A stretch of 33,147 nt of DNA, from positions 1-33,147 of the forward strand of contig WRJS01000032.1 of the NCBI GenBank assembly GCA_009778475.1, given 5' to 3'. The DNA comes from Kiritimatiellota bacterium (GTDB taxonomy: Bacteria; Verrucomicrobiota; Kiritimatiellia; RFP12; UBA1067). Below are positions 610 to 33,147 of the stretch, piece by piece. The translations under genes and the position numbers were made by a program. Positions within the stretch are counted from its first letter, which is position 1; the number at the start of each line of letters is the position of its first letter. The notes under the pieces are model-generated. The model did no database searches and was not told where the DNA came from. It worked only from the letters and a program-made list of their open reading frames with translations.

Positions 610-680
610 TTGCCGGGAGCGCAAGGCTTCCGCCTTGTAATGTTGACGATGCAGGGCGGAAGCCCTGCGCTCCCGGCATT
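610..680. repeat. Two GGAA/TTCC-loop palindromes head to head; rest of the spacer to 808 is empty
   Basis: Copy 1, minus orientation: GCAAGGC 621-627, loop TTCC, GCCTTGT 632-638. Copy 2, plus orientation: GCAGGGC 651-657, loop GGAA, GCCCTGC 662-668. Both have the CTCCCGGCA-type tail. They follow the metallopeptidase stop directly. I see no gene or site between 681 and 808. Confidence 0.85.
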
Positions 681-808
681 TGCGCTCTCGGCATTTGTTG
701 GTCTGGGATTCCTCGTCCCCGCAAGTATCCTGACCAACGCCTGCCTTGGCGGTCGGGCTTCTGGCGGCGTTCTGGGTCAGGAAAAAAATCGGGGTGATCC
801 GGTAACCC

Positions 809-3233: not shown

Positions 3234-3376
3234 TTGCAGGGCGGAAGCCCTGCGTTCCCGGCAATTCCTAATTGCAGGGCGGAAGCCCTGCGTTCCCGGC
3301 AATTCCTAATTGCAGGGCGGAAGCCCTGCGTTCCCGGCAACTCCTAATTGCAGGGCGGAAGCCCTGCGCTCCCGGG
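3234..3376 (+). repeat. Four tandem 38-bp GGAA-loop palindromes
   Basis: Copies begin at 3234, 3272, 3310 and 3348, an exact 38-bp period. Each holds GCAGGGCGGAAGCCCTGC (7-bp stem, GGAA loop), then GTTCCCGGCAATTCCTAA; the fourth has GCTCCC and a shortened tail. There are no unique spacers. They lie between the scaffold promoter and the end of the beta-helix gene, where stacked hairpins could stop transcription of the latter. Confidence 0.9.
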
Positions 3377-3382
3377 GGGGGC

Positions 3383-6300
3383 TCAGTCCGCTATGGCCTT
3401 GACCTTGAAGAAGGCTTTGCCGGTGGCGGGGAACTTGGCGGTGAGGACGCGCATGGCGTAGTCGGCCTCGCGGGAGACGCCGGGATGCTCGCCTTCGGGG
3501 CATTCCTCCCAGTCGCCTAGCACGAGGTCGCCGCGGACATAGACGGTGTATTTCGCGCGGGCGTAGCGCACGCGCTCGGGTAGCCATGAGAGCAGCACGT
3601 CGCCGCCGGGTTCAACCGCGATGGCGTCCACGTACACCCAGTGCCAGCCGTCCTCTTCCTCCTCCTCTTCCTCTTCCCATTGGGCGTACACGCGGCGCGC
3701 GGAGCCGTCGAAGGGGGTGTCGCCCGTGACGGGGATGCCGCTGCCGTCCATCGCGGTGTTCCATCCGGTGAAGGTCCAGCCGGGCCCTCGGTCGGGGTTC
3801 GTGGCGGGCAGCACGTAGCACCCGTCGGCGGCGGGGATGATCTCCCATGCGACGAGGGTGTCGTCGGCGTGGTACAGGTAGATCACGTCGTCGCCTTCCT
3901 TGTCGAGCCACAGCGCGTAGAGGGTGCCGCCGTTGGGCTGGTCCCAGACGTTGGCGCCGGTGCCGTCGGCGTGGTAGTAGAGTTTCCCGAGGGCGTTGGT
4001 GTACCCGGCGAATACGAGCAGGGGGTCCATCGCGACGGGCGGCACGATGGTCGGCATCGTGAAGCCGTACAGGGCTTCGACGATGAGGGTGGGCGCGGGC
4101 GTGTTCATGGTGAGCGTGTTGGGCTCGAGGATGACGGTGAACCGGTCTGCCGCCACCCACTGCGCGTACACGACGTGCGCGGACTCGGCCTCGATGAACT
4201 CCGTGTTTTCATCAATGGCGTTGCCCTCGGCGTCGGCCCAGCCGTCAAACCAGTACCCGGGGCGTGCGGGCGTGACCTCGGGCAGGACGTAGTAGCCGGT
4301 GGAGACGGTTTCCTGCATCGTGGGGGTGCCGCCGTTGCCGTTGTAGATGACGTTGTGGGTGGAGACCCAGACGGCGTACACGTTGAGCGTGGAGGTCGCG
4401 GGGATGAAGGGGGTCTTGCCCGTGACCCACTCGCCCTTGCCGTTGGGCGAGGTGTTCCATCCGGCGAAGGCGTACCCTAGGCGCTCCATGTCGTCCTCGG
4501 GCAGCACATAGAACCAGTCTTCGGGCGTGACGAGGCGGTGTTCGCTCGTGCCGTCGTTCCAGTGGAACGTCACGCCGTCGAAGAACTCGTAGGCGCCGAT
4601 GTCCACGGTCAGGTCGTAGATGCGCGGGTGTCCCGCAAGGTCGGCGCCGTTCCACGACGCTGGCACATACGCGTTGTTCCCGGCGTTGATGCAGTGCGAC
4701 AGCGCCCCGAGTTTGAAATTCCCGTTTGCCGCGTCCACGAACAGCGGGTCGGCGCTGCGGTTGCCGTTGCCGAGCCTCGGTGTCGGCGTGCTGCAGTAAA
4801 ACATGCGGCTGAGGGTGATGTCGATCCAGTCGGGGTTGTTGGCGTTGACGACGGCGCGGGTGTTGCCCCACATAATCGTGTTGTAGTGGGTGCCGGAACG
4901 CACGGCGGCACCGGCCGTCCCCGAGGCGGTGGAGTGGTTCAGCGTGAAGGTGCAGTTGCGCGTGATCCGTCCCGCGCTGGTGTACAGCCCTGCGCCCCGA
5001 TCCGCCTTGTTGCCGTGAACGAGGCACTGCTCCATGGCGGCGTAGTACGCCCCGCCGCCATAGCGCGGCGTGGTGTTCGAATACACCAGGCAGTGCGCCA
5101 GCGTGCCGTAATGCGCCCCGCCCCCGTTGTAGTTCCCCGACACCGTGTTGGCATAGACACGGCAATGCTCCAGCGTGCTGTAGTTCGCCCCGCCCCCGGC
5201 GTTCAGCGACGTGTTCGCGTAAATCTTCGAGTGCGACACCTTGCCGAAGTTCACGCCGCCGCCGCGGTTGCCCGTCGCCCTGTTGTTGTGAATCTCCGAG
5301 CGCGTCACCACGACGGGGTTCGCCGCGCTGTTCGCGTATGCGCCGCCGCCCGCGTAGGAGGCCGTGTTGTGGGCGATGACGCACTCGTCCACGACGCTGT
5401 ACGCCACGCCGCCGCCAAAGCGCGCCGAGTTGTTCGTGATGACGCAGCCTATCACCGTGCCGCCATAGACCCCGCCGCCGTAGCTCGTGGGGTTCGCCGT
5501 TCCCGGCGCCGTCCCGCCCCGCAGCGTGAAGCCGACGAGCTTCGTCTGGTTCTGCCTCGGCGCCATGGCCAGCGTGGCGCAACGGTTCGTCGATGTGCCG
5601 GCCACGATGGTGTCCTCCGGCCCGTTCAAACTGCGGATCGTGATGTCCCGGTTCGACGTCTTGAACGCCGCATACACCCCGTTGCTCACGATGACCGTCC
5701 CGTAGGAGCTCACCGCATCCACGCCGCCTTGAATCGTCTTCTTCGCCGTCTCCCAGCTTGCCCCGTCCCACGCGTCGTTGCCGAAACCCTGCGCGACATA
5801 GACCGCCCGCTTCGGCACCCCGTACTCGAACGCCCCGATGTCCACGACCTCGCCACCGCCGCCATTGATGATGCGGAAATTCCCCGCAAGGTCAACCCCG
5901 TCCCAGCCCGCCAAGAGCGGGGTGATGAGCACATTGAACCCCTTGTCGATACACGGCGAAGCGCCCTGCAACTGGAAATTCCCGCCCGCCTCGTTCACGA
6001 ACCTCGGATCCTCGTTCCCCGGCAACAGCGCATTGACGCTGGTGGATCCCTGCGGCGCCGTCGTGTAGCAGAAATTCATCGCGGTGCCGTTGTGGTTCAC
6101 ATTCCCCGTGCCGCCCCCGGCACGCGTGTTCCCCCAGATCAGCGAGTTGTTGTGCGTGCCGCCCGACACGCCAACCCCCGCCGTCCCCGTCCCCGTGCAC
6201 CGGTTGCCGACAATCGTGCAATTGTACGACACCCCCCCGAACGTGCCGCTCCCGCCGGCCGCCCCGTTCACCTCCACCACATTGCCCTGCACCAGGCACT

Positions 6301-7471: not shown

Positions 7472-8551
7472 TCATTGCCTCTGAGGCGCCAGCCCGCGGA
7501 AAACGGGGTCGGGGCCGGAGACGTCGCCGCACGACACGTGCGCGGCCTCGCGGCAGCCGCCGTCGCAGGTGATGCCGATGTGCCTGCACCCTTCGCAGCC
7601 GCTGGGCAGCCAGTCCTTGCGGACGAACTGCTGCCAATAGGGGTGGTCTTTCAGTTGCTCGTAGTCGCGCCAGTGCGCCAAGTCGATGGGCGAGTGGTTG
7701 CACACGCGCAACTGCCCCGAGGGGCTTACGACGAAGAAATCCGATGCCGCCGAACAGCGCGTCCCGACCTTGATGTGCGTGAAGCGTTCGGGGTCAACCA
7801 AACAGCGCGGATATTCCGTGCCGATGTGCCCCTTGCGGTTCGCCTTCGCCAGCACCGCCTCGGCGATTTCGGGAATCTGGCGGATCTGCTCCACGCTCAA
7901 CTCCAGGTCGCGGTTCGCCAGCCCGCGCCCGCCGGGCATGAAGCGGTTGAGCAGGATTTGGCTCGCGCCCGCAATCAGCGCCATCGCGATGGTCTCGTAA
8001 AGCTCATGGAAGTTGCGGCGCGTCACGGTGATGCCCGCCGTCGTCGTGATGCCCATTGCGCTCGCCTTGCGGAAGATGTGCAGCACGTTCTCCACGGGCT
8101 GGTTGCCCCGCGTGTGTTCCCCGAAGGTCTCCACGCCGGGGAGGCTGACGCTCAGCGCGATGTTGAGGTCGCGGCACATCTCCAAGATTTCGTCGGTCAC
8201 CGCCTTCCCGTTCGAGAGCAGGTAGAGGCTGGGCGGCGCGTCCTGCTGTTTCAGCGCGCCGCCGACGGTCTCGATGTGGTGCGCCGTGAGGCGGGCGGTG
8301 AAGGCGATGAGTTCCAGCAACCCCTTTTTCAAAAGCGGCTCGCCGCCCGTGAAGCAGAAGCTCGTGACCCCCGCGCGGGCGAACGTCTCGACCAACTCCT
8401 TCCACTCGCTGACAGGCATCTCTTCTGGAGGGCGAGCGTCCCCGCGAGCCATGTCGAACCACGGGCATGAGCAAAACAAACACGCATGGTTACACGCCCA
8501 CGTCATTTCAAGGACGGCGGTCGCGGGGAGTATGGAGAGGGCTGGGAGCAT
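7472..8551 (-). CDS. Radical SAM/SPASM domain protein
   Basis: A 359-aa enzyme. The radical SAM cluster motif CNHACLFC (C20, C24, C27) follows a typical first strand ending in LEMTWAC. FTGGEPLL fits the SAM-binding GGE motif. The C-terminal SPASM region has well-spaced cysteines (GTRCSA, RVCNHSP, CEGC, TCDGGC, SCG), enough for auxiliary Fe-S clusters. SPASM enzymes often modify peptides or proteins, but the substrate here is unknown. The gene upstream on the same strand encodes an exported Cys protein (180 nt away), a possible partner. Bases 8424-8450 are an in-frame palindromic repeat coding for ARGDARPPE, inserted right after the cluster motif. No clear Shine-Dalgarno precedes ATG 8551; a heptad tract lies there instead. 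Confidence 0.88.
   Translation of the reverse strand: MLPALSILPATAVLEMTWACNHACLFCSCPWFDMARGDARPPEEMPVSEWKELVETFARAGVTSFCFTGGEPLLKKGLLELIAFTARLTAHHIETVGGALKQQDAPPSLYLLSNGKAVTDEILEMCRDLNIALSVSLPGVETFGEHTRGNQPVENVLHIFRKASAMGITTTAGITVTRRNFHELYETIAMALIAGASQILLNRFMPGGRGLANRDLELSVEQIRQIPEIAEAVLAKANRKGHIGTEYPRCLVDPERFTHIKVGTRCSAASDFFVVSPSGQLRVCNHSPIDLAHWRDYEQLKDHPYWQQFVRKDWLPSGCEGCRHIGITCDGGCREAAHVSCGDVSGPDPVFRGLAPQRQ
8424..8450 (-). repeat. In-frame GAGGGCGAGCG-type repeat in the radical SAM gene
   Basis: The plus strand reads GGAGGGCGAGCG, TCCC, CGCGAGCC, an imperfect palindrome. The same sequence occurs twice inside the UbiA gene (17900-17971), and a version forms the ends of the 19583-19681 element. 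Here it codes for ARGDARPPE, between the CxxxCxxC motif and the next helix. Confidence 0.8.
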
Positions 8552-17539: not shown

Positions 17540-17580
17540 CATCCCTCATTCCTAATTCCTAATTTCTAACTCCTAATTCC
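17540..17580. repeat. Heptanucleotide tract (ATTCCTA type) at the UbiA stop
   Basis: Units CATCCCT, CATTCCT, AATTCCT, AATTTCT, AACTCCT, AATTCC. Read on the minus strand it codes for the last residues ELGVRN and the TAG stop (17559-17561) of the prenyltransferase, then continues to the dctP ribosome binding site. It is the same type as 174-231. Confidence 0.85.
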
Positions 17581-18728
17581 AAAAAGATCGCCAGCACCGT
17601 CAGCGCATAGCCGATGACCGTGACGATGAGCGTCCTGTCCGTCAGCATCACCTTCTCCGGCCGCCCGCCGCCCTCATGCTGGTACACCAGCGTCAGGTAA
17701 CGGAAAATGCCGAACAGCACGAACGGCACCGTCAGCCCCAGGCGGTCCGTCCCGAACCGCTGCACCGTCTCCGGCGCGAGCGTGTAGATGGCGTAGCACA
17801 CCACCGTCGCACCCGCCGTGATCGCGATCTGCACATCCAGTTGCAGACGGTCATACCCCGCCAGCGCCGCCCGGTGCAAAGGCGGCGCGCCCCCCTCCCC
17901 TCTGGCGGGCGAGCGTCCCCGCGAGCCGTCCCCTTCCTCTCTGGAGGGCGAGCGTCCCCGCGAGCCGCCCCCCTCCCCGTCATCCTCCAACAACACCTTC
18001 TCATGCCGCCGCTTGCACAGCGCCAAGAACAACGCCAGCAAAAACGTGCACAGCAGCAGCCACGGCGAGATGCGCACCGACACCGCCGCCGCGCCCGCCA
18101 CCGCCCGCAGCACAAACCCGAACGCGATCACAAACACATCCACATACGCCACGCGCTTCAGCGCGAACGTGTACAGCACCTGCATCACCACATACGCCCC
18201 CGCGACCCACGCGAACGCGCCCGGCAGGAACACCGCCGCCGCCGCCGCCAGCGCCAGCAGCCCCGCCGCCAGCGCCGCCGCCACAGCCACCGAAATCTCC
18301 CCCGCCGCCAACGGCCGCAGCCGCTTCACGGGATGCACCCTGTCCGCCTCCACGTCGCGCACATCATTGAGTTGATACACCGCGCTCGACACACAGCAGA
18401 AACAGAACACCGCCAGCGCCACGCACGCCACCGGCCAGACCCCCCGCACATGCTCCTGCTGGCTCGGGTCCCGCCACGCAAAGAAAAACGCCGCCGCCAC
18501 AATCCCGTTCTTCAGCCACTGCGCCGGACGCAACGCCCGCAAGGCGGCACGGGCATTCCTGCCCGTGGACCCCGCCCGGCCGCGCAAGGTGGCACGGGCA
18601 TTCCCGCCCGTGGGCTCCGCCCGGCCGCGCAAGGTGGCACGGGCATTCCTGCCCGTGGGCTCCGCCCGGCCGCGCCCGGCATCATTACCGTGCTGAAACT
18701 CCCTGTTGCGAGACCGGGGCTTGCTCAC
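17559..18728 (-). CDS. UbiA-family prenyltransferase, decaprenyl-phosphate phosphoribosyltransferase-like
   Basis: 389 aa from GTG 18728, which overlaps the upstream glycosyltransferase stop (GCGTGAGC). The family core begins only near residue 64 with LRPAQWLKN. The metal/diphosphate motif is NDVRDVEADRVHPVKRLRP (about 121-139). VDVFVIAFGFVLRAVAGA and the CKRRHE loop are typical of the group that joins phosphoribose to polyprenyl phosphate. About eight hydrophobic segments follow. It is longer than the usual ~300 aa because of repeats: three 45-bp palindromic units near the N-terminus and two GAGGGCGAGCG units in the cytoplasmic loop after CKRRHE. The C-terminus is set by a heptad tract. With the DPM-type gene it suggests lipid-linked sugar donors for cell-surface glycans. 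Activity with the inserts is untested. Confidence 0.82.
   Translation of the reverse strand: MSKPRSRNREFQHGNDAGRGRAEPTGRNARATLRGRAEPTGGNARATLRGRAGSTGRNARAALRALRPAQWLKNGIVAAAFFFAWRDPSQQEHVRGVWPVACVALAVFCFCCVSSAVYQLNDVRDVEADRVHPVKRLRPLAAGEISVAVAAALAAGLLALAAAAAVFLPGAFAWVAGAYVVMQVLYTFALKRVAYVDVFVIAFGFVLRAVAGAAAVSVRISPWLLLCTFLLALFLALCKRRHEKVLLEDDGEGGGSRGRSPSREEGDGSRGRSPARGEGGAPPLHRAALAGYDRLQLDVQIAITAGATVVCYAIYTLAPETVQRFGTDRLGLTVPFVLFGIFRYLTLVYQHEGGGRPEKVMLTDRTLIVTVIGYALTVLAIFLELGVRN
17900..17971 (-). repeat. Two in-frame GAGGGCGAGCG-type repeats in the UbiA gene
   Basis: Two near-identical units, each GCGAGCGTCCCCGCGAGCC with a CTCTGG(A/C)GG lead, lie about 38 bp apart. They code for GSRGRSPSREE and GSRGRSPARGE in the loop after CKRRHE. 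The same unit is found in the radical SAM gene and at 19583-19681. Confidence 0.85.
18539..18673 (-). repeat. Three in-frame 45-bp palindromic repeats in the UbiA gene
   Basis: Copies start at 18539, 18584 and 18629. Each holds CACGGGCA, TTCC (or TCCC-like in copy 2), TGCCCGTG, an 8-bp stem with the same 4-base loop as the GCAGGGC family. A 45-bp unit is 15 codons, so the frame is kept; the protein reads GRAEPTGRNARATLR-like three times before the enzyme core. Confidence 0.9.
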
Positions 18729-19471
18729 GCCTTGCCCCCCGCATCTTTCCGCACACGCGGCGAGCGCCTGAACCCGCACCGCGCCCACAGTTTCAGCACC
18801 ATCACGACCGCCTCCCGCGCGATGCCGGAGCTCATCTTCGACTGCCCCGCGCGGCGGTCCTCAAACATGATCGGGACCTCGGTGATCGCGAACCCCTTCA
18901 TCCACGCCGCGTGCGTCATCTCGATCTGGAACGAGTACCCGCTCGACGCGATCTTGTCAAGGTCGATGGCCTCCAGCACCTCGCGGCGGAAGCACTTGAA
19001 CCCGCCCGTCGGGTCATTGACCGGCATCCCCGTGATGAGTTTCACATACTTCGCCGCGCCCGTCGAGAGCAGCAGGCGGCCCATCGGCCAGTTCATCACG
19101 CGGATGCCGCCGATGTAGCGCGACCCCAGGACCAGGTCCGCCTCCCGCGCCGCCGCCAGCAGCGACGGCAGCGCCTTCGGGTCATGCGAGAAATCGCAGT
19201 CCATCTCGCAGATCAAGTCATAGCCGTGCGCCAGCGCCCACTTGAACCCCGCGATGTAGGCGCGGCCAAGCCCCTCCTTCTTGTCACGGTGCATCACGGA
19301 CACGCGCGGCTCACGCGACGCGATCTCATCCAGCAACTGCCCCGTGCCGTCGGGCGAGTTGTCGTCCGCGAACAAAATGTTCGCGGACGGCACCTCCGCA
19401 AGCACCGCCTCCGCCATCGCCGCCACATTCTCCCGCTCATCGTATGTCGGTATAACAATCAACGCCTTCAT
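18725..19471 (-). CDS. Polyprenol monophosphomannose synthase-like GT2 glycosyltransferase
   Basis: 248 aa from ATG 19471, a soluble GT-A fold protein like DPM1. MKALIVIPTYDERENV begins the fold. DDNSPDGTG and EMDCDFSHDP hold the acidic residues for nucleotide-sugar and metal, and DPTGGFKCFRREVLEAIDL is a strong DPM-type mark. This family moves mannose (or a related sugar) from the GDP- or UDP-donor to polyprenyl phosphate on the cytoplasmic side. Only a single catalytic domain is present, with no GtrA-like membrane part. The stop overlaps the GTG start of the prenyltransferase, so the two are translationally coupled and probably feed the same lipid-linked sugar pathway. The longer frame to 19528 is rejected because it would cross the likely promoter. 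Confidence 0.88.
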   Translation of the reverse strand: MKALIVIPTYDERENVAAMAEAVLAEVPSANILFADDNSPDGTGQLLDEIASREPRVSVMHRDKKEGLGRAYIAGFKWALAHGYDLICEMDCDFSHDPKALPSLLAAAREADLVLGSRYIGGIRVMNWPMGRLLLSTGAAKYVKLITGMPVNDPTGGFKCFRREVLEAIDLDKIASSGYSFQIEMTHAAWMKGFAITEVPIMFEDRRAGQSKMSSGIAREAVVMVLKLWARCGFRRSPRVRKDAGGKA

Positions 19472-29292: not shown

Positions 29293-32200
29293 CTATTCTT
29301 CAAACCCTGAGTCCTTGACCCGCATCGTCCGGCAGTTTTCAGAAATTGTACGCACAGTCTGCTGCGTGAACCCGTCAGCGGATTCAGCCTCAACTTCGAT
29401 GGAGACCTTCACCTGTGCGCCATCGACGGAAGTCAGGTGTTGGATTATCTCTTCTACATACTTTTGCACGTCACGGTTAATCCGCGTGGTGTCCAAGTCG
29501 GCGGACATAAAAAACCGTCTGTTTTTGGGCGTTGTGCCCGTCGATACAGACGCTTCGTGATCAGTTAAAGACATAGCGTTTTTTTCTGCCGGTGGAGTAT
29601 ATGCGGATGTTCTGCCTTCGTCGCTCGCTCCTGCGGGTACAGACGAACCGCTCCCCATTCTTGCTTCCGCTTCCGCTCGGCGTCTTTGCTCTTCTTCGTT
29701 AAGCTGCTTAATCGCAACATCGACTTTTACTAAATACCCCGACCGTTCGACCAGTCCAATAAACTGATTAAACTTCAAATCGATGTAGCGCGAGCCGTCA
29801 AAGCCGGATGCAATGGCGAAATATTCCGTAGCGTTCACGCCCGTTTGGATTGCATCATGCAGCACGTTTTCGCTTGCTAATCGCGGGAGGTAGCAATATG
29901 TGCAGAGATACTCCCAGAGTTTCTTTATGGCAATATTATCGCCTTCGCGCCACAAAACATTGTCCAGTTCCATCCGAAGCAAAGCCGGAGCCCACTGCGT
30001 TATGATTGCCTCGTTTTGAAGCATCTTCTTTGCGGCTTTTGTGATTATGCTATCGTTGCCGCCACTAATACGGATAGCATCCCAGACAATGGTTTTCATG
30101 TCAGCGTTCTTGTCAATATACGGGACGAGAAGCCAGCAGTACGCTTCCTTGACCCTCGCGTCAACTGTTTCGTTGGCGCGGCGAAGGTTATTATCGGTTT
30201 CCCGGTTTTGCGCGGCATCGAGGTTCAAATCCTCGCTGTCATCCTTGATAGATTTCCAAGCGTTATAAAGCCGTACCGCTTGCTGTAGCGAAAACACCAA
30301 GTCTTGGTCGGGAGCAATAAAAGCAAGCATATTCCGATATATACGGGGTGTGTTTCCGCGATTATTCAACGTGTCGGCAACCGCAGCCATTGCCTTGTTG
30401 TTTGGGTTGGTCGCCTTGTATTCGTCGGAAGGACGCAGGATGACCAAACGAGCGGTTTGCTCGTCAGGCACGTCGAGGGATGAAGCGGGGCAAATATGAA
30501 TACCCGCAAACGGCTGCTCTTTCCGAAGTCCGCGAAGGCGCGTTTCAATTTCATACTCCACATCAGAAGCCGATACTTGTGTGGCACGGTCTTCCACCGT
30601 TTTGCGGAGCGTCGGGCGGGTATCATACCAGAAACGGTCGCTGGAAGGATTGGTGTAAAGGTAGGCGAGCGAAGATGTCAGCGTGTTCAAAGCGTCGTTA
30701 AAGTTGGCGATGTTCTCGCCGGGTTGAATCACGCCGAGGCGAATGCGTGATGCTTCAATACCGCGCACATTCTGGTCGCGCACCGTAGGCGCGGAACCGA
30801 GCATTACCGTTCGCGCCACACGGCGAGCCGCTAGCTTACCGCCGTAACGCGGATTTGACTGGTCTTTTTGGAACGGGATAGAATTCCTGCCGTCAACCTC
30901 ACGGTCAACGAGCGCATTCCACCCTTCGGAAAGATGCCGCGTCAATTCATCTCGCACGTTCGGCACGTCAAGCGGTATCGAGCCGGGCATAATCATAAGC
31001 CCCGCATCATTGCCCATCCAAAGTTCATGGATGACCGCCGCCATCAGGCGCAGCACACCGCGCGTCCTTTGGAAACGCTCCAATGTCGCCCAGTCCTCAT
31101 ACAGGCGGTCGAACACTTCTGGATGGATCGGATAACACGAAACCATGCGTTCCATATATTCAACCTCGCGGGATTCCAACGGGAAGTCGCTCTGGTTTTC
31201 GTTATACATTTGGCTGAACTTAGAACAGACCGCATCACGACCATCGGGATTCTTGCAGTCGAGGAACAAACGGCGGCGTACCACCTCAAAGCCCTCGTTT
31301 GCCGCGACGGGCTTCCATATCGACTCCATGCGCCCGAAAGTATGCTCTATCGTCTCAAGCGCGATTTTCCCTGCGTCGCCGCCGATTTCAATGTCTGATT
31401 CGGGGATTGACGCGACAACAAGGCTGTTCTTGCTCGCTCTTGCCGCTTCGGTCACTTCTTGTATAAAAGAGATGAAGTTATCAAACGTCCCTGCCGGAAG
31501 ACCGTTTACGCCATAAATCTTCTTGGCGTATGCGACCAGTTCATCCATCAGGATGAGGCATGGCGCGGCGGCGTCAAATAGGTTTTTCAACGCCTCCGAA
31601 CCGGGCGACACGCCCTTCTTGTCCGATTCTTTTACATACTCATATAAATTCGGGTTTTCTGCCGACTCCGCAAGCTGCGCCGCCATCTCGCCCCAAAGGG
31701 TATTGATGGTAATACCGGGCATATTGTTCGGGCGCTTACTCTTTGTGGGGTCAAGGGCTGTGCCGACCAGAACGGCTACGTTGGCTTTCGGCAACGTCGT
31801 TATGTCTGCCCGCTGAAGCACAGGTTTAATGTTCGGAATCTTGTCCACCGAAACCCTGCCGCGCATCATGTGGTAGAGCGCGAGCATACTATGGGTCTTG
31901 CCGCCGCCGAATGCCGTCTTTAACTGAATAACAGGCTCGCCGTCCTTGTTGGAAATGCGGCGAAGCGACTGCACCAACAGTCCCGTCATGCCCTCGGTGA
32001 CGAAAGTACGGGCAAAGAACTCCACGGGGTCGCGGTACTCCATCGCCCCTTCGCCCCTCGCCACTTGCGCGAGGTCGGCTGCAAACTCTGCTTTTTTGTA
32101 TCGCCCCTGCGCCACATCGGGGTGCGGCTGCATGACTTCACGCCAATGGAGCGCGGGCGTCCCGCCCGCATTAATTTCTTTTAATGCGGACGGGACGTCC

Positions 32201-32631
32201 GCGGTCCATGTGGAGCCTTCGGCGGAACCGTAACGGGATGTGCGGAGCAAGCCGCGAATCTCTTCCGCACCTTCGGGGTCAATCTGCTCTGATAACCGCG
32301 ACATGGTATCGAGCGCGCGCCATGTGTCGTCGGCGGAAAAATCCTCGCCACCGAGATGCGCAAGTTTTTCACTTACGCCGACCAGTTCCTTCGCCCATGT
32401 TCTATGGTCAATGGACAGCTTCTTGCGAAAAACCTTCTGCCAGTGCAAATCAAACAAAAGGAGGCAGTTATGGACCGCGGACGTCTCGTGGACCGCGGAC
32501 GTCTCGTCCGCATTATTATAAACGGACGGGACGTCCGCGCTCCATGATTCCAGTTCACGGGCGATGTAGGGTCTCATTGACCTAAGCAGAACCCGAAACC
32601 CCTGTGAAATTTGCGTGTGATGATTAGCCAT
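29293..32631 (-). CDS. DUF499-family P-loop ATPase
   Basis: 1112 aa from ATG 32631, with GGGAGGT 8 nt upstream; the frame extends two codons to a TTG. Walker A is AFGGGKTHSMLALYHMM (GGGKTH is typical of DUF499) and Walker B is CLILMDELVAY. The C-terminal part is rich in charged helices and beta strands. DUF499 ATPases occur next to DUF1156 DNA methylases in multigene defence cassettes, and the gene 15 nt upstream fits that methylase; restriction or phage defence is therefore likely but indirect. Two palindromic elements are inserted in frame: one near residues 29-55 (ending in SAVHETSAVHN) and one near residues 141-163 (WTADVPSALKEINAGGTPAL). Both lie before the ATPase core. A remnant ORF follows instead of further full-length genes. 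Confidence 0.88.
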   Translation of the reverse strand: MANHHTQISQGFRVLLRSMRPYIARELESWSADVPSVYNNADETSAVHETSAVHNCLLLFDLHWQKVFRKKLSIDHRTWAKELVGVSEKLAHLGGEDFSADDTWRALDTMSRLSEQIDPEGAEEIRGLLRTSRYGSAEGSTWTADVPSALKEINAGGTPALHWREVMQPHPDVAQGRYKKAEFAADLAQVARGEGAMEYRDPVEFFARTFVTEGMTGLLVQSLRRISNKDGEPVIQLKTAFGGGKTHSMLALYHMMRGRVSVDKIPNIKPVLQRADITTLPKANVAVLVGTALDPTKSKRPNNMPGITINTLWGEMAAQLAESAENPNLYEYVKESDKKGVSPGSEALKNLFDAAAPCLILMDELVAYAKKIYGVNGLPAGTFDNFISFIQEVTEAARASKNSLVVASIPESDIEIGGDAGKIALETIEHTFGRMESIWKPVAANEGFEVVRRRLFLDCKNPDGRDAVCSKFSQMYNENQSDFPLESREVEYMERMVSCYPIHPEVFDRLYEDWATLERFQRTRGVLRLMAAVIHELWMGNDAGLMIMPGSIPLDVPNVRDELTRHLSEGWNALVDREVDGRNSIPFQKDQSNPRYGGKLAARRVARTVMLGSAPTVRDQNVRGIEASRIRLGVIQPGENIANFNDALNTLTSSLAYLYTNPSSDRFWYDTRPTLRKTVEDRATQVSASDVEYEIETRLRGLRKEQPFAGIHICPASSLDVPDEQTARLVILRPSDEYKATNPNNKAMAAVADTLNNRGNTPRIYRNMLAFIAPDQDLVFSLQQAVRLYNAWKSIKDDSEDLNLDAAQNRETDNNLRRANETVDARVKEAYCWLLVPYIDKNADMKTIVWDAIRISGGNDSIITKAAKKMLQNEAIITQWAPALLRMELDNVLWREGDNIAIKKLWEYLCTYCYLPRLASENVLHDAIQTGVNATEYFAIASGFDGSRYIDLKFNQFIGLVERSGYLVKVDVAIKQLNEEEQRRRAEAEARMGSGSSVPAGASDEGRTSAYTPPAEKNAMSLTDHEASVSTGTTPKNRRFFMSADLDTTRINRDVQKYVEEIIQHLTSVDGAQVKVSIEVEAESADGFTQQTVRTISENCRTMRVKDSGFEE
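32146..32209 (-). repeat. In-frame composite palindrome in the DUF499 gene (distal)
   Basis: Arms 32146-32174 and 32181-32209 are near-complementary around TTTCTT. Each arm is itself a hairpin: GCGGGC-GTCCC-GCCCGC on the left, GCGGAC-GGGAC-GTCCGC on the right. The arms differ at only three of 29 positions, and two of these are the paired change that keeps each hairpin intact. No stop is introduced. Confidence 0.88.
32470..32545 (-). repeat. In-frame composite palindrome in the DUF499 gene (proximal)
   Basis: The element begins ATGGACCGCGGACGTC and ends GACGTCCGCGCTCCAT. Its left unit GTGGACCGCGGACGTCTC is partly duplicated. It codes for the stretch from SWSADVPS to ETSAVHETSAVHN near the DUF499 N-terminus. 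Confidence 0.85.
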
Positions 32632-32646
32632 GACCAATACCTCCCG

Positions 32647-33147
32647 TTAATCGTTCATTGTCTCAAACATCGTCATCTGTTTTGCGTTTCTTCGCTGCGC
32701 TTGCAACTCGGCGGCTTTCGCCTGAACATCCGGCCAAGCAATGACGAGCGAATTGTACGCATAAGCCTCCTGCGCCCACCCTTTGCGCTCGGCGATGGTG
32801 AACAGCCGATACGCGAGAGCCTTTGCGTGCTCGGGTTCGGACGTGAATATTTCGGCGATAATCTCCGCAACGCCGACCACGCCGCCTTTTTCCAGCGCAC
32901 AGGTAAGCCGCTGCGTGAGAAGCCAGATGTTATGGAGCGCGGGCGTCCCGCCCGCATTAGATGCGGGCGTCCCATCCGCATTAGATGTGGGCGTCCCGCC
33001 CGCATTAGATGTGGGCGTCCCATCCGCATTAGATGCGGGCGGGACGCCCGCGCTCCATAATAGACGCACGACACCTTTTTCCGCATACAGGATGCCCATG
33101 TTTCTCAATTTCTCCACCGATGTATTCTTTGCCCGCGCCAACACGTC
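32647..33147 (-). CDS. DUF1156-type DNA methylase, C-terminal part (runs off the window)
   Basis: The last 166 codons of a larger gene are open at the right edge. The C-terminus LAYRLFTIAERKGWAQEAYA, then YNSLVIAWPDV, resembles the end of DUF1156-containing adenine-specific DNA methylases, large proteins normally encoded beside DUF499 ATPases. The catalytic domain is outside the window, so the assignment rests on this tail and the neighbour. The stop is 15 nt before the DUF499 start, an operon-like spacing. A 131-bp repeat element (32930-33060) lies in frame and adds about 43 residues of the form SNADGTPT/SNAGGTPA between VVRLL and IWLLTQRL, a position where uninterrupted relatives should read straight through. 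Confidence 0.68.
   Translation of the reverse strand, partial: DVLARAKNTSVEKLRNMGILYAEKGVVRLLWSAGVPPASNADGTPTSNAGGTPTSNADGTPASNAGGTPALHNIWLLTQRLTCALEKGGVVGVAEIIAEIFTSEPEHAKALAYRLFTIAERKGWAQEAYAYNSLVIAWPDVQAKAAELQAQRRNAKQMTMFETMND
32930..33060 (-). repeat. 131-bp mini-element with 28-bp terminal inverted repeats and four 24-bp units, in frame in the methylase gene
   Basis: Ends 32930-32957 and 33033-33060 are exact 28-bp reverse complements, beginning TTATGGAGCGC. Between them four 24-bp units start at 32939, 32963, 32987 and 33011 (GCGGGCGTCCCGCCCG, then CATTAGAT, and variants). Twenty-four is a multiple of three, and no stop arises in the methylase frame. Confidence 0.9.

Follow-up and report, generated by a model that had tools for sequence, protein, structure and literature searches.

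Five in-frame elements of one REP family lie in the three genes of an Hma defense operon of a Kiritimatiellota bacterium, and they were probably spread through this likely horizontally acquired operon by the RAYT transposase whose domain is found within hmaA. DNA that is probably of selfish origin is now predicted to be translated within the Hma defense proteins. The window, by which we mean the whole stretch of 33,147 nucleotides analyzed, is the entire contig C32 of a 3.97-Mb genome, and when hmaB is joined over the 123-bp overlap with contig C19 it encodes a DUF1156 methylase of 932 aa (Table 1). PADLOC models name all three genes as HmaA (helicase), HmaB (methylase), and HmaC (HEPN-DUF499 ATPase), and the three stand in one operon whose order follows from the contig overlap. 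Hma is described as a DUF499-centered, BREX-related defense system in which the HmaA helicase, the HmaB N6-methyltransferase, and the HmaC HEPN-DUF499 ATPase form a single operon (outlined in PMC12839542); the present operon agrees with that description, but here REP-encoded peptide has taken the place of loops in each of the proteins, and the HEPN motif is altered. The G+C content is 52% in hmaA, 50% in hmaB, 54% in hmaC, and 45% in the RAYT part, compared with 65% in the first 29 kb of the window. Because values of 45–54% contrast with 65% for the host, the operon is likely foreign and horizontally acquired.

Table 1. Features of the Hma operon and its REP elements; positions lacking a contig name are those of the window
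Feature	Position	Strand	Length	Description
hmaC	29293..32637	-		HEPN_Swt1 + DUF499 AAA+ ATPase; HmaC model E=0
HmaC-2	32146..32209	-	64 bp	dimer resembling a REPIN; ~30 native residues of the linker missing; in frame
HmaC HEPN motif	32356..32379	-		GVSEKLAH: R89S, N90E
HmaC-1	32470..32545	-	76 bp	18-bp tandem duplication; in frame; ~41 native HEPN residues missing
hmaB 3' part	32647..33147	-		DUF1156 adenine methylase; HmaB model 1.1e-22; 5' part on contig C19
REP array in hmaB	32930..33060	-		in frame; encodes WSAGVPPASNADGTPTSNAGGTPTSNADGTPASNAGGTPALH
Element proper of hmaB array	32932-33058		127 bp	ATGGAGC...GCTCCAT; TT/AA lengthen the inverted ends to 28 bp
Sequence common to C32 and the C19 end	33025..33147	.	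123 bp	beyond it, the rest of hmaB, then hmaA
RAYT unit in hmaA	C19:35620-36318		699 bp	REPs on both sides of the RAYT domain
C-terminal array near hmaA 3' end	C19:38196-38340		145 bp	in frame

The block in hmaB had been described in a sequence-only reading as a palindromic mini-element that was inserted into the methylase gene, kept its frame, and was tolerated as protein. The 28-bp terminal inverted repeats noted there are indeed perfect (32930-32957 and 33033-33060), the 24-bp units are four in number as claimed (first positions, 32941, 32965, 32989, and 33013), and the minus-strand frame stays open across the block, which is read as 42 residues (HmaB 797-838, WSAGVPP...TPALH) between conserved HmaB blocks on both sides. 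When folded as DNA, the 131-nt block lies 11.7 SD below dinucleotide shuffles, none of 200 of which equaled it. The estimate of about 43 added residues was close as to the 42 encoded, but it does not describe a pure addition because about 13 native loop residues are gone and the net gain is 30 (932 aa versus 902 aa in the closest relative, P0122). Similarly, the comparison with related methylases that had been proposed as a check found the block absent from relatives, as expected of an insertion, but with a native loop replaced where a clean insertion had been foreseen. Tolerance of an inserted palindrome as protein is supported both by these relatives and by the presence of the same REP on the flanks of the transposase domain of the operon, but the element does not stand alone: it is a RAYT-associated REP array, one of five elements in the operon.

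An ordinary low-complexity linker, lengthened by tandem duplications in the absence of any mobile element, might account for the 24-bp tandem units of the hmaB copy and would resemble the repeat-rich linker that P0288 HmaC has at the HmaC-2 position. An equivalent long loop in all relatives, which had been named as the mark of such a linker, was not found, given that 118 of the 119 listed HmaB relatives fill 14 or fewer of the 42 inserted columns and that the sole exception, P0125, fills 33 of them with unrelated sequence. The block is thus absent from listed relatives, and the ATGGASC...GSTCCAT ends that are common to five unrelated sites and to the surroundings of the transposase contradict the explanation, which was rejected as having next to no probability.

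Units of the form ATGGA[G/C]C...G[C/G]TCCAT occur at five sites across the joined operon, one in HmaB, two in HmaC, and two in HmaA, and each is read in frame. The tandem steps within the elements are 24, 30, and 18 bp, each divisible by three, and the REP subtypes are mixed among the five, which means that these are no fresh copies of one parent. All five open with ATGGA[G/C]C and lack the unpaired GTAG or GYRG-type end tag of the GTAG superfamily, while the CGTC superfamily, defined by the end tag CGTC and no association with a transposase gene, differs from the operon REPs in that CGTC is here internal to the hairpin and a RAYT stands between the repeats. Membership in either superfamily was therefore rejected on the tag, and because that tag is neither GTAG nor CGTC the elements are classed, by their sequence, as a RAYT-associated REP family outside both. 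The 64-bp HmaC-2 consists of two inverted REPs with a short spacer that form one unit, which corresponds to the REPINs reportedly introduced by Bertels and Rainey in 2011, but the operon elements differ from REPINs in lying in coding sequence and in having expanded to arrays in hmaB and hmaA.

The larger element of HmaA is a complete unit, with REPs at C19:35620-35675 and 36234-36318 around a RAYT domain whose key residues are kept. This domain comprises HmaA residues 511-696 and is read through in frame just ahead of the second helicase lobe, with KLIIFTEH immediately after the insertion. It scores 80.9 bits against NCBIfam REP_Tyr_transpos (NF047646; cut-off, 80) and matches Pfam Y1_Tnp (PF01797), and TnpAREP (4er8) is both its only PDB sequence match at E≤0.001 (1.3e-6) and the best fold match of its model. 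The HUH residues H104 and H106 and the conserved Tyr, Y164, which we take to be the catalytic tyrosine, are invariant in eight aligned RAYTs, so that the combination typical of a RAYT/REPtron, i.e., a Y1 transposase with HUH and tyrosine between flanking REPs, is present. In a structure model of HmaA 470-885, the RAYT part mostly reaches pLDDT values of 70-87, whereas the helicase part is poor, and no inter-domain geometry is therefore claimed. HmaA is 1,439 aa long, compared with 1,148-1,215 aa in 119 listed relatives (the best 119 of 7,998 scored), and these relatives fill a median of 12 and a maximum of 41 of the 233 inserted columns at the RAYT unit and at most 7 of the 50 columns at the C-terminal array. 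P0040, a 1,215-aa HmaA relative, has a different inverted-repeat-like peptide (GARTSCPH...GQDVRAPS) at residues ~490-540, in the same loop as the RAYT, and this insert, seen as protein, suggests that the loop may be a recurrent landing site.

Judging from the alignments, the elements replace variable loops, with the loss of ~7–41 native residues, and are not clean insertions. HmaA has lost ~7 residues on the right side of the RAYT unit and 7 from its C-terminal loop, HmaB has lost 13, and HmaC, measured against the 85%-identical relative P0241, has lost ~41 (HmaC-1) and ~30 (HmaC-2). The four transposase-free elements, of 64, 76, 127, and 145 bp, are all 3n+1 in length, so a simple insertion would shift the frame and the surviving copies needed a compensating loss. 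These loops are variable anyway, as other inserts in P0124, P0125, and P0040 indicate. The HmaC relative P0288 carries tandem proline-rich repeats in the linker that HmaC-2 replaced.

The Hma core enzymes look maintained in sequence, with HmaA and HmaB conserved to the same degree as their relatives apart from the inserts. HmaB deviates at 4 of 398 conserved columns (median of relatives, 4) and HmaA at 10 of 727 (median, 6), two of the latter (residues 533 and 583) being alignment artefacts inside the RAYT insert. In HmaC, 21 of 591 conserved columns deviate, mostly in the HEPN part (median, 6; 4 of 120 relatives deviate as strongly). Its HEPN motif reads S-E-x3-H, and because S-E stands where 115 of the 120 listed HmaC relatives have R-N (R-N-x3-H), the HEPN RNase is probably inactive; HEPN belongs to this HmaC subfamily and is no defining feature of the Hma system. 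On account of the 21 deviations in HmaC and the missing Arg-Asn of HEPN, part of the operon may be decaying. A structure model of the HmaC N-terminus (mean pLDDT, 61) was left aside.

We think it improbable that the elements are kept for a function, either as flexible segments of the proteins or as hairpins that attenuate or stabilize the polycistronic mRNA. Such a role would suit the very stable hairpins, the proline- and glycine-rich linker peptides, and the occurrence of elements in each gene, and roles of REP RNA are discussed in PMC3733652 (seen in part), but the sites and reading frames differ, the listed relatives manage without the elements, and the loops concerned are variable anyway, with other inserts in the three relatives named above.

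HmaB differs from P0122 at only 2 positions in residues 1-778 and then at 26 of the 112 residues outside the insert, and this fall in identity from 99.7% to 77% occurs near window position 33114, inside the 123-bp contig overlap. The junction, which is present in both contigs, is a product of recombination, strain mixing, or assembly, and the comparison of HmaB with P0122 as filled and empty sites is confounded by recombination or assembly. A filled/empty site pair at high identity over both flanks was not found among the relatives, P0122 being the closest. An assembly artefact, in which reads from several strains or genomes were joined at repeats, would be in line with this drop and with the end of C32 only 87 bp beyond the array, where 123 bp are common with the C19 end. 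It is nevertheless very improbable as an explanation of the elements because four of them (the RAYT unit and C-terminal array of HmaA and the two in HmaC) lie inside contigs and join in-frame conserved flanks, and because the hmaA-hmaB-hmaC order runs on over the contig join.

A whole-genome search for the repeat, which the sequence-only reading had recommended, placed all close matches in the Hma operon: 12 of 12 BLAST matches lie on C19 or C32 within it, as do all 10 copies of an exact REP 19-mer. A loose pattern gave 16 matches, 13 of them in the operon; of the strays, those on C62 and C188 have another common flank, and that on C42 has mismatches at 4 of 20 positions. A genome-wide REP family of the host was rejected because the exact and BLAST matches are confined to the operon, and the 19-mer was absent from 160 other genomes of the host order, many of them incomplete. 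Two other RAYTs of the host are 41% identical to the HmaA RAYT and are flanked by other repeats. The host's own REP family, TGCAGGGCGGAAGCCCTGCGCTCCCGGCA, is found at window positions 611-681 and 3235-3375, and its type also flanks a RAYT on contig C30 (L213). A second host RAYT, on contig C147 (L218) at ~5164-5685 (minus strand), is joined via its own REPs to a lipoprotein-like frame that by eye belongs to the M28-peptidase family; the joint open frame has 575 residues and may be two genes. Further repeats of other families, with 39-bp and 45-bp steps, are located in a UbiA gene (17559-18788; repeats at 17888-17965 and 18538-18675) and a radical SAM gene (7472-8551; repeat at 8411-8449), and these look like further in-frame palindromic inserts.

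Elsewhere, the REP pattern was found in at least 119 stretches of named species genomes, with a bias to few MAGs: among the matches listed, a single Cand. Obscuribacterales MAG accounts for 43 stretches, two Verrucomicrobiales MAGs contribute 25 and 15, four 'Accumulibacter' MAGs together contribute 13, and others make up the remaining 23. The same flanking REP accompanies five RAYTs, 47–55% identical to the HmaA RAYT, from four MAGs that represent three lineages (Verrucomicrobiales Pc512 and Gx481, Obscuribacterales, and 'Accumulibacter' Im510), and four RAYTs with other REPs are 41–48% identical; RAYT identity separates REP types imperfectly, since one of the latter reaches 48%. Of the five units with the same REP, four (L204, L205, L207, and L212) have a RAYT frame that itself extends across the 3' REP, and this facilitates the in-frame landing of a whole unit. 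No RAYT match was obtained in 6 of the 15 genomes or records searched, among them two REP-bearing 'Accumulibacter' MAGs, which are incomplete genomes, and viral contig L158 has the REP pattern with no RAYT found on it.

The at least 119 loci contain 157 REP clusters, of which 124 were scorable with our own codon score as the in-frame classifier, the 33 near locus edges being excluded from the rates. Among the matches listed, clusters in frame number 0 of 57 in Obscuribacterales, 0 of 13 in 'Accumulibacter', 14 of 22 and 9 of 11 in the two Verrucomicrobiales MAGs, and 1 of 21 in the others, while random positions fall in genes at rates of 35–63% by group. With 35% and 42% expected at random in Obscuribacterales and 'Accumulibacter', the REP avoids genes in these two groups. 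Many independent in-frame insertions in the two Verrucomicrobiales MAGs (JAISBF and JAISDC, loci L039-L157) were rejected because their 23 clusters fall in one paralogous gene family and are counted as few events; they occupy the same place in large paralogues, autotransporter-like by eye, and represent one insertion copied along with the gene family. The remaining in-frame case is a helicase, RecQ-like by eye, in Planctomycetota MAG JAGQRI010000214 (L104:3-1727, minus strand), where the REP copy, as with the unit in HmaA, seems to precede the second helicase lobe immediately. REP-like peptide words were absent from 120 HmaC relatives, and in 238 HmaA and HmaB relatives they were limited to two in P0040 and to a single short word in P0174 and another in P0228, these last two being attributable to chance.

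One alternative, which we consider possible although rather unlikely, is that the operon gathered its elements in a REP-rich donor through the action of other RAYTs and was then imported passively, with the HmaA RAYT as a passenger and no local multiplication. The mixture of REP subtypes, the abundance of the REP in other lineages (the at least 119 stretches), and the foreign G+C of the operon are consistent with such an import, as is a REP-bearing 'Accumulibacter' MAG whose HmaA belongs to the same subfamily, with identities of 88.5% over 487 columns and 96.5% over 115 columns; this HmaA has no insert at the RAYT site, and its frame stops after 620 residues. Against it, REPs avoid genes in the two REP-rich groups, so that five elements in one three-gene operon represent a high density, and a donor operon bearing the elements was not found, the HmaA-like matches (E≤1e-60) in 3 of 12 genomes being free of the REP at up to 5 mismatches.

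The preferred explanation, local spread by the RAYT within hmaA, is supported by the REP that is common to all five sites and the surroundings of the RAYT, by the relatives that have no elements, by the kept HUH motif and tyrosine, by the confinement of close REP matches to the operon, by its foreign G+C, and by the published Marinomonas precedent described below. The RAYT would nick single-stranded REP hairpins, and after a REPtron had landed in hmaA, REP copies might have multiplied nearby within the operon. The survivors would be only those with frame-keeping net lengths in variable loops, where the stop-poor, GC-rich repeats could be read as flexible Gly/Ala/Pro/Ser/Thr linkers, and the tandem units might later have grown in multiples of 3 bp (24, 30, and 18). 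The mobility and local copying of the operon REPs are inferred from sequence comparison, and clean single-strand transposition does not predict the loss of 7–41 native residues. The 3n+1 lengths, the mixed REP subtypes, the imperfect match of RAYT identity to REP type, the genomes searched that gave no RAYT match, the tag other than GTAG, and the deviations of HmaC also count against this explanation. A bolder proposal, about which we are doubtful, is that the unit is a gene-dwelling RAYT-REP element, stop-free throughout and with a translated domain, and that the helicase is an active transposase that rewrites the variable loops of neighboring genes by insertion-coupled deletion. If true, the whole unit would live in a host gene without splicing, unlike an intein, and the transposase would be expressed with the operon.

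In-frame palindromes tolerated inside proteins are known from Rickettsia, whose palindromic elements of ~150 bp form ten families (PMC10969869, seen in part and citing Ogata 2000, 2002), but this precedent, the one named in the sequence-only reading, does not stop at that genus. Intragenic REPs occur in several species, among which Opitutus terrae (Verrucomicrobia) has the highest number of the GTAG type, and the intragenic arrays of Thauera and R. conorii span 43-82 residues (Di Nocera 2013, PMC3733652, seen in part). Those GTAG/CGTC REPs resemble the operon elements in being short in-frame palindromes that form dimers and arrays, are in many cases located in DNA-processing proteins, and are also found in a PVC bacterium, O. 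terrae; they differ in the tag, here ATGGA[G/C]C, and in the in-gene RAYT unit, undescribed in the portion of PMC3733652 consulted. RAYT/TnpAREP REPtrons likewise have a Y1/HUH transposase between inverted REPs (Nunvar 2010, PMC2817692; PMC8266576; both seen in part), but here the whole unit is continuous with the host reading frame and the tags differ, and in Marinomonas REPs were multiplied or concentrated near a newly arrived REPtron (PMC8266576, 2021). Among the titles and abstract beginnings of the open-access literature searched, none was found to report a RAYT or REPtron embedded in the reading frame of a different gene. In-gene REPs are thus already known, and the whole in-frame REPtron seems to be the new part relative to the literature searched.

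The mechanisms of REP dissemination are called poorly understood in the abstract of PMC8266576, and an operon in which a transposase and its repeats share three genes, exact copies having been found nowhere else in the genome, bears on how REPs spread. It offers a limited number of events for which relatives reveal the native sequences and in which the surviving outcome is loop replacement over simple insertion, and the predicted helicase-transposase fusion is directly testable. These findings suggest that defense genes can absorb selfish DNA in frame, which would be a route to new linkers and domains.
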